A stretch of 64,000 nt of DNA from Oscillospiraceae bacterium (GTDB lineage Bacteria; Bacillota; Clostridia; Oscillospirales; Oscillospiraceae). The notes under the pieces were generated by a model. It ran no database searches, was not told the DNA's origin, and worked only from the letters and a program-made list of their open reading frames with translations. The translations under genes were made by a program, and so were the position numbers. Of this stretch, positions 57,121 to 61,345 are shown piece by piece (within the stretch, counting starts at the first letter, position 1; each line of letters starts with the position of its first letter). The DNA is taken from contig WRLE01000003.1 in NCBI GenBank assembly GCA_009777775.1, positions 124,001-188,000 on the forward strand, read 5' to 3'.

Positions 57121-59907
57121 ATGAACGATAAAGAAGCAAAACTCCGAAATCGAAAAATTATATCAATAATCAAAAACCCCATATATGCGGCTTTGTCCGT
57201 GCTTGTGTTCATGTTTTCCATGTATGCAGCTATGGGGTTTTTCCCCTTTGGTGAAAAGCTAATATCCTGGTGCGACATGAATCAGCAAGTGGTTCCGCTG
57301 CTCATGAATCTGAAAGATATTCTAAGTGGAGAAAGTAATATATTGGTAAACCATGGAAATGCTGGAGGAATGAGCTTTCTATCGGTTTTTTTCTTTTTCA
57401 TATCTAGCCCGTTATCACTCTTGGTGATCTTCATTCAAAAAACGAATATGATGAGTTTTATGAACATTCTAGTAGCGCTAAAAATGGCTCTAGCAGCAGC
57501 CACCGCCTGCGCTTTTTTTGAACGAGGGGACGGTGAACGGAGGGACGGTTCTGTTGAACAGAGGGACGGTTCTTTTGTTCAGACAATTGAACAGTTGGGA
57601 GTTCAAGCAACTGAACTGTTGTCTGAACAAAAGAACCGTCCCTCTGTTCAACAGAACCGTCCCTCCGTTCACATCTATTTGGGGTTCACATATGGCTTAT
57701 GCGGCTATGCTATGCATTATTATCAAAATATTATGTGGCTTGATATGATGTATCTTTTTCCCCTTTTGGTAATTTCTCTGGAGAGGCTATACTTTTATAA
57801 AAAACCATTGATGTATATCATAACCCTCGCTTTGATGGTGTATGCGAATTTTTACATTGCTATCATGGTTGTTATATTTCTTCTGCTGTCGATGGGAGCG
57901 CATTTGCTTGTTCGAAGCGAAAAGGGAGATAGAGTCGAATTGGCTTCGATTTTCGCAAAATCATCTATATTTTCGGCAATGCTCTCGGCGTGGGTATGGC
58001 TACCGAGCATATTACAAATATCAGGTAGTGCTAGAATGGCGAGCTTATGGGAAAGCTTATCTGCGGGAGGCTTTGTGGGATATTATGAAACAACATTGCC
58101 TCTTTTATACTGTACCCCAATAATTTTCGCGGCTTTGCCTTTTATTAATAGCGTTAAAAAGCGCGAGCGAGACAAAAACGATTATACAAACCTTGTATAC
58201 TGGTTAGTGCTTTTTGTGCTAACTGTTTTACCTCAGTTCGTGGAACCCATTAACAAAATGTGGCATACTGGAAGCTATATGTCCTTTCCCAATCGATATG
58301 GTTTCATAGCAATATTTAGCGGGCTTACGGTGGTCAAGTATGTTGTAAATAGCATTGTTATTTCAAATGTGCGAGAAGAAAAAATGCGCATTGAGAGCAG
58401 TCCTGTGGCTGTGGCTCTAGCAGCTTGCGCAGTCTACTTTGTATTTTTCGCAGGCAAATTTATTATAGACAGTACAGGCGATGAGCTTTATGCATATACC
58501 CGCACATTATGGGGTAATAAAGATAGCTTTTCGGCATTATCAATATATTTTGTAGTTTGTTTAGTTTTCTACATTATTTTATTCTACTTGCCAAAAAGGA
58601 AAACGCTCTCAAACCCATTGTTTATACTTTCATTTAGCATGATGGCTTTTGTGATAGCTTCCTTTAATTTTCGCGTCTATATTGGTTCTGTTTCACAAAA
58701 TGGAGCTGTGTTCGAGTCAATAGTGGAGTTAGAAGATAAAATTGACGATATGGGCTTTTATAGGGTGAAAGTAGCTGAAAAGCTCTTTGATGTGAATATA
58801 GTGGGTGCAATTGGCTATAATAGCCTTTCCCATTATACTTCCATAACTAGCCAAGATTATATGTTTGCCATGAAAAAGCTTGGTTATTCATCATATTGGA
58901 TGGAAGTGAACTCCGATGGGGGAACATTTTTTTCAGATGCTCTATTGTCGAATAATTATGTAATAGCAGGCTGGTGGGATAATTATCCAGGTGAAGTGAT
59001 TGCTTCAACGGATAGATATAGCATATATGAAAATAAAGTCGTTTTTCCTGCTGCTGTGTTTTCCTATGCGGAGCCTTTAAAACTGGAAAAGCTATCAGAG
59101 GGGAATAGGCTGGAGCTACAAAACGATATTTATATGCAGCTTTTTGATGATGATGAAGGTATTTTCAACGGACATTCACCAATAGAAAACAATGGCTTTT
59201 TCGATTATGAGATTGAAATAATTGGCACAAAAGCTCTCTATTTTGATTGTTTTCATACTTTGTCAAACAGACTTAGAGAGCCGACTTATGACTCATATAG
59301 AATATATGTCAATGGGAACAGCATTGCTCGCACATACCCCAGTCAGAGGCAAAATGGAATACTGTTTCTTGGTGAGTATACGGATACATCAGTATTGGTG
59401 AGTATTGAAATTCTAAAAGATATAGCAACAAAGTCCTTTGGCTTATATAGTCTCGATATGGACAAACTCATGGAAGTGGCAAAGGAAGCCTCAGGTGCGC
59501 AGATTGATATTATGGGAAGTAGAGTGAGCATCGAATATAATTCTGATACTGTGGGCTATCTGTATCTCTCTTTACCGAATCTCAAAGGTTATAGTGTAAG
59601 AGTTAATGGTTCAAAAGCTCAGATATTCAATGTTTTTGACAATTTCATGGCGATTGCTGTGGCTTCTGGAGAAAACCATATAGTTTTACGTTATAGAACT
59701 CCAGGTTTGCTTTTTGGAATTTTAGCTTCCATATGCGCTGTGATAATAATGTTAATGAATAAAGTTGCTGTGTTACAAAAAGAGCAGGGGAGCAGTCTTT
59801 GTTCAACTGCTTTGTATGTCTTGGTCGTTGTTCTAGTCGTAACAATTGTTTTTACCGTGTATATTTTCCCAGTTATATATAAGTTACTGGTCATGTGTAC
59901 TTCGTAG
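57121..59907 (+). CDS. YfhO-family membrane protein with in-frame palindrome insertion
   Basis: A 928-residue membrane protein with about twelve spans and a large extracytoplasmic C-terminal region, as in the YfhO/PF09586 family. The family core appears as YLGFTYGLCGYAMHYYQNIMWLDMMYLFPLLVISLERL. In B. subtilis YfhO is linked to lipoteichoic acid glycosylation. Residues about 138-184 (reading RRDGSVEQRDGSF... and KNRPSVQQNRPSV) are encoded by the palindromic element at 57534-57671, and the frame is kept. The insertion lies in a loop just before a conserved span, so the protein may still fold. The ribosome site is weak. Confidence 0.85.
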   Translation: MNDKEAKLRNRKIISIIKNPIYAALSVLVFMFSMYAAMGFFPFGEKLISWCDMNQQVVPLLMNLKDILSGESNILVNHGNAGGMSFLSVFFFFISSPLSLLVIFIQKTNMMSFMNILVALKMALAAATACAFFERGDGERRDGSVEQRDGSFVQTIEQLGVQATELLSEQKNRPSVQQNRPSVHIYLGFTYGLCGYAMHYYQNIMWLDMMYLFPLLVISLERLYFYKKPLMYIITLALMVYANFYIAIMVVIFLLLSMGAHLLVRSEKGDRVELASIFAKSSIFSAMLSAWVWLPSILQISGSARMASLWESLSAGGFVGYYETTLPLLYCTPIIFAALPFINSVKKRERDKNDYTNLVYWLVLFVLTVLPQFVEPINKMWHTGSYMSFPNRYGFIAIFSGLTVVKYVVNSIVISNVREEKMRIESSPVAVALAACAVYFVFFAGKFIIDSTGDELYAYTRTLWGNKDSFSALSIYFVVCLVFYIILFYLPKRKTLSNPLFILSFSMMAFVIASFNFRVYIGSVSQNGAVFESIVELEDKIDDMGFYRVKVAEKLFDVNIVGAIGYNSLSHYTSITSQDYMFAMKKLGYSSYWMEVNSDGGTFFSDALLSNNYVIAGWWDNYPGEVIASTDRYSIYENKVVFPAAVFSYAEPLKLEKLSEGNRLELQNDIYMQLFDDDEGIFNGHSPIENNGFFDYEIEIIGTKALYFDCFHTLSNRLREPTYDSYRIYVNGNSIARTYPSQRQNGILFLGEYTDTSVLVSIEILKDIATKSFGLYSLDMDKLMEVAKEASGAQIDIMGSRVSIEYNSDTVGYLYLSLPNLKGYSVRVNGSKAQIFNVFDNFMAIAVASGENHIVLRYRTPGLLFGILASICAVIIMLMNKVAVLQKEQGSSLCSTALYVLVVVLVVTIVFTVYIFPVIYKLLVMCTS
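57534..57671. repeat. 53-bp perfect inverted repeat inserted within the yfhO-like gene
   Basis: Arms 57534-57586 and 57619-57671 are exact reverse complements. Each arm carries GAGGGACGGTTCT-type units in direct repetition (AGGGACGGTTCTGTTGAACAG, then GAGGGACGGTTCT). The 32-base centre contains a further stem CAGTTG/CAACTG. A diverged partial unit (GAGGGGACGG) precedes the left arm. Sequences containing AGAACCGTCCC are recurrent in Clostridia. The insert is readable in the gene's frame. Confidence 0.88.
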
Positions 59908-60073: not shown

Positions 60074-60102
60074 TTGACAAGTTGAAGTGCTTGCGCTAAT
60101 AT
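60074..60102 (+). promoter_or_regulatory. Promoter of the zinc-uptake operon
   Basis: TTGACA (60074-60079), 17 bases and TAATAT (60097-60102), 41 bases before the start codon. No clear Zur dyad could be recognised. Confidence 0.75.
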
Positions 60103-60142
60103 GGTACAGTGTTTCAAATTCGCCAAACTATTGGAGGTCAAC

Positions 60143-61345
60143 ATGAAAAAGAGTATTGCGTTACTTTTATCTATCCTATTGCTTGTTTTGCTGTTACCGG
60201 CATGTAATAGTAATGAAGGAAATAATGGGAATAATCCTAGTACAAATAACAGCTACATCGATTCTCCCAATAGGCTCAATATCGTCTGCACCATATTTCC
60301 ACAATACGATTGGATAATGGAAATCATGGGCGATTTATCAAAAAACCATAATATAACGCTCTTATTGGGTAGTAAAATTGATTTGCATAATTATCAACCT
60401 TCTGTGGATGACATCGTGAGCATTTCCACTTGTGACCTCTTTATTTATGTGGGAGGCTTATCCGATGTTTGGGTAGAGGATGTGCTATCTCAAGCCATTA
60501 ACAAAGACATGATTGTTCTTAACCTGCTGGATAGTTTGGGAGATAGAGCAAAAATCGAGCTCATTATCGAGGGAATGGAGCATGACGACCATGACCATGG
60601 CAACGAGGCTGAGGACGAGTATGAGCATGACGAGAATCCACATGATGAAGATGCGCATGACAAAGATGCACATGATGATGAATACGACGAGGATGACCAC
60701 ATGGATGACCACATTGATGACCATGACGATGATCATGATGATAACGATGACCATGACGATGACGATGACCACGAAGACAACCATGACGATGACGATGACC
60801 ACGATGAGGATTTCGATGAGCATATATGGCTTTCTCTTAAAAACGCACAGCACTTATGCTCTGTCATCGCAGACTCTTTAGCTCGGCTAGATCCAGAAAA
60901 TGCTGATATTTATTATGGAAACCTTGTTGCATATGTGGCTTCTCTAAATGAATTGGATGCAAGATATCAACAAGCGGTTAGCGATGCACCTGTGCAAACA
61001 CTGCTTTTTGGTGATAGATTTCCCTTCCGATACCTCCTTGATGATTATAATATTAACTACTATGCTGCTTTCCCTGGTTGTAGCGCAGAAACGGAAGCTA
61101 GTTTTGAAACGATAATATTTTTGGTGAATAAGGTGGATGAACTGGAACTAAAATGTATAATGATTACTGATAGTGGGGATTTGGCTATTGCGTCTACTAT
61201 TAAAGACAATTCAAAGACAAAAAACCAAATAATACTTGCCTTAGATTCGATACAGACTGTATCTATGGACGATATTTCCGCTGGAGCAACATACTTAAGT
61301 ATCATGGAGAAAAATCTAGCTGTACTCGTTGAAGCATTGTCATAA
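60143..61345 (+). CDS. znuA: Zinc ABC transporter substrate-binding lipoprotein with long His/Asp tract
   Basis: Start at the ATG at 60143 with GGAGG upstream; 400 residues. Lipobox LPAC at 18-21. The TroA/ZnuA fold has metal ligand candidates at DLHNYQPSVDDI, DEHIWLSLKNAQH and TDSGDLA. Residues about 145-226 are an extreme His/Asp/Glu stretch, much longer than the usual His-rich loop, and must bind many zinc ions. The permease gene follows 33 bases downstream. The tract is mostly repeats of GAT/GAC and CAT/CAC codons and could vary in length by slippage. Confidence 0.92.
   Translation: MKKSIALLLSILLLVLLLPACNSNEGNNGNNPSTNNSYIDSPNRLNIVCTIFPQYDWIMEIMGDLSKNHNITLLLGSKIDLHNYQPSVDDIVSISTCDLFIYVGGLSDVWVEDVLSQAINKDMIVLNLLDSLGDRAKIELIIEGMEHDDHDHGNEAEDEYEHDENPHDEDAHDKDAHDDEYDEDDHMDDHIDDHDDDHDDNDDHDDDDDHEDNHDDDDDHDEDFDEHIWLSLKNAQHLCSVIADSLARLDPENADIYYGNLVAYVASLNELDARYQQAVSDAPVQTLLFGDRFPFRYLLDDYNINYYAAFPGCSAETEASFETIIFLVNKVDELELKCIMITDSGDLAIASTIKDNSKTKNQIILALDSIQTVSMDDISAGATYLSIMEKNLAVLVEALS

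Follow-up and report, generated by a model that had tools for sequence, protein, structure and literature searches.

The palindrome at positions 57533 to 57672 of the window (the whole 64,000-nucleotide stretch of DNA analyzed) is very probably a non-autonomous mobile element of a family resembling those of RAYTs (REP-associated tyrosine transposases). The convergent repeat units of which it is composed would represent recognition ends, once the termini of a RAYT-encoding element that lost its gene by internal deletion; a RAYT-like protein encoded in the same genome (contig C12) most likely mobilizes these units; and a dimer of them would have landed in a loop of the membrane protein YfhO.

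The two arms of the element (57533-57586 and 57619-57672, no strand assigned) were found to be perfectly complementary over 54 bp, confirming a hairpin at 57534-57671 that had been claimed in an earlier note on this DNA with perfect arms of 53 bp, one fewer than we find. Around a 10-nt center, the inverted repeat could be extended to 65 bp (94%). When folded as single-stranded DNA, the palindrome region gave -77.2 kcal/mol compared with -22.9 ± 3.5 kcal/mol for shuffled sequences (z = -15.7), and the Rfam search returned chance-level matches only, far under the gathering scores (e.g., mir-199). Each arm contains a complete 27-bp unit together with a truncated one, and the element is nested, with an inner full pair enclosed by an outer pair cut at mirror-image points. 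On the left, the outer unit (57534-57554, + strand) is truncated after GGTTCTGT and carries the rare GGGACGGTTCTG variant, and is followed by the inner full unit TGAACAGAGGGACGGTTCTTTTGTTCA (57555-57581, + strand), which is translated as EQRDGSFV. A 42-nt spacer (57582-57623, no strand assigned), itself a degenerate palindrome, leads to the inner right full unit (57624-57650, - strand; EQKNRPSV when translated from the + strand) and then to the outer right unit (57651-57671, - strand), whose truncation point mirrors that of its left counterpart. An extra truncated unit, TGAACGAGGGGACGG (57519-57533, + strand), is present on the left side only and has no mirror on the right. All four occurrences of the GGGACGGTTCT core in the window (at most one mismatch; 0.5 expected) fell within this palindrome. 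A second copy of the 42-nt spacer was absent from the own-genome stretches around unit copies.

The symmetry of the arms bears on whether the palindrome, instead of being inserted as a dimer, grew at its present site from a single unit through quasipalindrome mutation (fold-back template switching at replication). The arms match without a mismatch, including at the rare GGTTCTG variant (a base other than T follows only 5 of 163 genomic cores, and the arms of the yfhO element account for two of the five); the outer units end at mirror-image points; and similar symmetric nesting was detected at C15:28182 and C12:77705. However, convergent pairs with comparable spacers (24 and ~43 nt) occur at many loci, which points to dimers that move as units and leaves formation in place improbable as the origin of the palindrome. 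Template switching may instead have shaped the yfhO arms after insertion. Under the mobile-element reading, the identity of the arms, even at the rare variant, would stem from hairpin-templated correction or copying or from a joint origin.

The interrupted gene (57121-59907, + strand) encodes a 928-aa YfhO-family (GT-C-like) membrane protein, as judged by its match to PF09586 (E = 6.7e-82) together with weak NCBIfam matches to PgfM1/PgfM2. The ORF is open throughout the element, and the peptides that the earlier note had read from the two arms were correct. That note had also proposed a comparison with uninterrupted orthologues. Among the 80 orthologues compared (30-40% identical), the region of the insert spans 14-18 residues in every case and 16 in most, compared with 55 in the YfhO of the window, and the insert residues were present in 0 of the 80. 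The outcome that the note had named as refuting, the same residues in orthologues, thus did not occur. The note's description of a selfish repeated palindrome placed in frame in a membrane-protein loop is supported. Orthologue yfhO loci from named organisms likewise had no such paired units. The gene has gained a net 39 codons (117 bp), although ~154 bp derive from the element; thus, about a dozen (~12) native loop residues were lost or are unrecognizable, and the insertion was not clean. A candidate for surviving native loop within the spacer, QLGVQAT, which resembles KLGVLQNT of the orthologues, was rejected after its profile score proved not to exceed that of shuffled inserts (p = 0.16). 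AlphaFold2, run with 31 orthologues, gave a model with a mean pLDDT of 89.5, in which the insert was the least confident part (mean ~47-56) and formed a loop outside the fold, between helices 107-135 and 181-192. We propose that this inter-helix loop received a single dimer, or two nested ones, and that the insertion persisted because it changes the gene by a whole number of codons and one of its open frames is used; the enlarged YfhO is presumably made and working, and DGSFVQTIEQLGVQATELLSEQK is an example of a predicted peptide that would cover the in-frame insert. The nearest yfhO orthologues are ~40% identical, and neither an empty-site allele in a close relative nor transposition or excision was seen. 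In the same-genus genomes searched, the best match to yfhO was ~25% identical, while named Clostridia elsewhere reached 40%; judging from these identities, a horizontal origin of the gene is possible. Downstream, at 60101-61345, the window holds an ORF for a zinc-binding-type lipoprotein with a long His/Asp-rich low-complexity stretch.

The units of the palindrome belong to a repeat family that is abundant in the genome. The consensus of the 27-bp unit is TGAACNNNGGGACGGTTCTTTTGTTCA, with variation among 119 full units confined almost entirely to the NNN triplet. Exact GGGACGGTTCT cores were found 163 times in the own genome, compared with 0 matches to the reversed control of GGGACGGTTCTT and 1 to GGGACGGTTCTV; a 15-mer was present in 144 copies, with 2 copies in one congener and 0 in 17 other congeners. 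Adjacent opposite units formed 23 convergent and 0 divergent pairs, the variable triplet agreeing within 12 of the 23 pairs versus 14% between elements. The spacers of these pairs clustered at 3-5, 16, 24, and 39-44 nt, those of 24 nt being palindromic. About 50 unit clusters were read, corresponding to roughly two thirds of the copies, and ~46 of the 50 lay outside any family-supported gene. The earlier note, which had called for a count of intragenic, in-frame copies, missed that the family is mostly intergenic and that its 27-bp units naturally occur as convergent pairs, in a REPIN- or MITE-like arrangement. A variant convergent pair with the GGGACGGTTCT core and an unrelated outer stem, CTATGCGATTT/AAATCGCATAG, was observed at L038:7096-7171 (G000:C8:95103), with another at C12:20143; from their sequences, the two may represent a further type of stem that the family has in this genome.

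This recurrence also speaks to the concern that the palindrome is an assembly artefact or a chimera. The genome is a 35-contig draft, and amplification artefacts can make palindromes. Yet the frame is intact, the extra truncated unit on the outer left has no mirror, unit variants differ among loci, and the same architecture is found in other genomes; moreover, the stretches of genome that were read have the unit at ~50 distinct sites, and an artefact is therefore a next to negligible prospect.

One transposase gene flanked by the same units was identified in the own genome, outside the window. This RAYT-like Y1/HUH gene (266 aa; G000:C12, ~22.2-23.0 kb) matched PF01797 above its cut-off (E = 1.4e-15), displayed by inspection the motifs HVH (NHVHIL) and Y-IHQ-NP (YIHQNP), and scored 75.1 bits against NCBIfam NF047646 (REP_Tyr_transpos), just below the cut-off of 80. 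Its protein has a C-terminal extension with no Pfam HTH match up to an E-value of 10; TIRYT/subclass 2.1 proteins typically end in a helix-turn-helix (Bac_DnaA_C, HTH_23, or HTH_28). Both sides of the gene carry identical 30-bp inverted units in convergent orientation (C12:22.1 and 23.0 kb). Remnants of the RAYT 3′ end were detected inside two further convergent pairs, at C12:18.9 kb and C12:65.6 kb, with DNA identities of 77% (E = 1.9e-9) and 78% (E = 3.5e-6). With what is left of a deleted RAYT gene still lying between their units, these two pairs suggest that the palindromes derive from a RAYT element and are non-autonomous, and the sequence comparison shows that convergent pairs can arise from a RAYT-carrying element by internal deletion. 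The selfish-element reading of the earlier note holds for the insertion, but it missed this link to a RAYT-like transposase of the same genome. We suggest that the two convergent 27-bp hairpin units of a dimer serve as recognition ends, that they were once the inverted termini of a RAYT-encoding element whose intervening gene was lost by internal deletion, as in REPINs and MITEs, and that, by analogy with characterized systems, the C12 RAYT most likely still recognizes the single-stranded hairpin form of the units and, acting in trans, copies or moves dimers.

RAYT relatives across the class (39-47% identity) were found to have flanking units of their own, in which the GGGGACGGTTC core is common and the self-complementary stems differ; their outer stems include GACAG/CTGTC, TGTCA/TGACA, AACACA/TGTGTT, and TATATATCAAG/CTTGATATA. 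Counting the own locus, cores were present on both sides at 17 of 32 RAYT loci (upstream at 23, downstream at 18), and of the cores at these 32 loci, 65 were in the expected orientation and 2 reversed. Scores in a swapped-flank control reached 20 because the core is common to the loci, and the weight of this comparison thus rests on the orientation and stem evidence. At least 10 cores were held by 33 of 107 RAYT-positive genomes versus 10 of 284 RAYT-negative genomes (odds ratio ~12, p ~1e-12, from counts combined by hand from two tables and with statistics that ignore phylogeny), the latter ten having no RAYT match at the threshold used. The RAYT of Acetoanaerobium noterae DSL2 has identical 29-bp inverted flanks; for a Sporomusa plasmid RAYT, matching flanks were not found. 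A genome of the same family as the source but of a related genus (G372) holds 214 copies of GGGGACGGTTCT and a RAYT match at 39% identity; this expansion is a separate one.

Units were also detected in other genes. Three family-supported genes, accounting for 4 clusters, contain them: yfhO, trmK, and an ORF combining a GDSL lipase with a GH5 cellulase. In trmK, a group of units separates the methyltransferase domain from the C-terminal part, with a half unit further on, and two trmK relatives that keep the C-terminal part are ~22-26 residues shorter at the unit site (alignment, counted by eye). The GDSL-lipase/GH5-cellulase ORF has three tandem units in its linker, and a search for its orthologues among relatives gave no informative match. 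At least one unit in each of the three genes is read in the (R/G)DGSFV frame. These copies, and the CGTCCC of the unit, would suit a Rickettsia-RPE-like element that lacks its own transposase, has spread by some other route, and is specialized for in-frame insertion into genes, given that RPE-4 and RPE-6 are described as CGTC-tagged and transposase-free (PMC3733652). We consider such an element highly improbable, as the RAYT gene is flanked by the same 27-bp units, RAYT remnants lie within dimers, and most clusters (~46 of 50) are outside family-supported genes. Furthermore, 4 of the 6 frames of the 27-bp unit are open, near the chance expectation, such that in-frame reading requires no special adaptation. 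In-frame insertion of the RAYT-linked units is thus a rare surviving outcome and not a special property of the units, and the low intragenic share fits with purging of harmful insertions. A bolder extension, which we regard as doubtful, is that a RAYT system present across the class, from a branch for which REPs have been reported absent, generates these elements and hairpin-templated copying keeps their two arms identical; genes would repeatedly have accepted the elements as preformed linkers, through which unrelated proteins came to share a similar GDGSFV-type peptide that was possibly put to use.

No description of the core sequence was found among the papers listed in our literature search, and the name TIRYT was used in two papers only; the unit family and its transposase partner appear to be undescribed, while the kind of event is already known. 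Several aspects give the system broader value. An in-frame palindrome is tied directly to a candidate transposase, a link that is missing for CGTC repeats and hence for RPE-4 and RPE-6. High-copy hairpin repeats are assigned to RAYT genes of Clostridia-type genomes, the RAYT remnants in dimers represent visible intermediates from an autonomous element to a small palindrome, and the common core with its variable stem constitutes a natural experiment on RAYT recognition.

In REPIN/REP-RAYT systems (REPtrons) of Pseudomonas and E. coli, inverted pairs of hairpin units are found beside a Y1/HUH transposase gene (PMC3116915, PMC8266576), and E. coli TnpAREP recognizes its units as single-stranded hairpins (PMC8266576). 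The yfhO family resembles these systems in its short inverted hairpin pairs with a spacer, its many and mostly intergenic copies, and the adjacent Y1/HUH transposase gene; the inverted unit pair and spacer are able to form one hairpin, and units flank the RAYT of the same genome. Unlike in REPINs, the units have no 5′ GTAG tag, the internal GGGGACGGTTC core is conserved while the outer stem around it varies, and the units are true inverted ends of the transposase gene. The unpaired GTAG or CGTC that canonical REPs have at the hairpin foot is lacking: GTAG is absent from the consensus of 119 units, and CGTC is restricted to the loop core of one strand. TIRtrons (TIRYTs) consist of RAYT-like genes with GGGGWSAS inverted repeats, whose TIRs are moderately abundant elsewhere as dimers or clusters (PMC3733652); in subclass 2.1 RAYTs, which include most TIRYTs, REP-like sequences nearby have been reported absent (PMC6006769). 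The yfhO family shares the RAYT-like gene with inverted flanking repeats and the dimers and clusters elsewhere; however, its GGGGACGG flanks have one mismatch to GGGGWSAS, at position 7, so that the strict motif is not matched. It further differs in its more than 160 cores, its self-complementary units, and the demonstrated internal-deletion derivatives. In-frame intragenic REPs in genes of many species, as well as RPEs, have been published (PMC3733652), and the likeness to Rickettsia RPEs drawn in the earlier note holds as far as the type of event is concerned: as with RPEs and intragenic GTAG/CGTC REPs, an in-frame palindromic repeat adds 20-80 residues to otherwise normal proteins. Compared by description, the family differs from RPE-4 and RPE-6, reported to be without a dedicated transposase, in host group and unit architecture. 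In TnpAREP subclass 2.4, an in-frame REP is located in a peripheral loop of the transposase gene itself (PMC6006769); the peripheral-loop in-frame insertion is alike, whereas the hosts in our case are unrelated genes and not the transposase.
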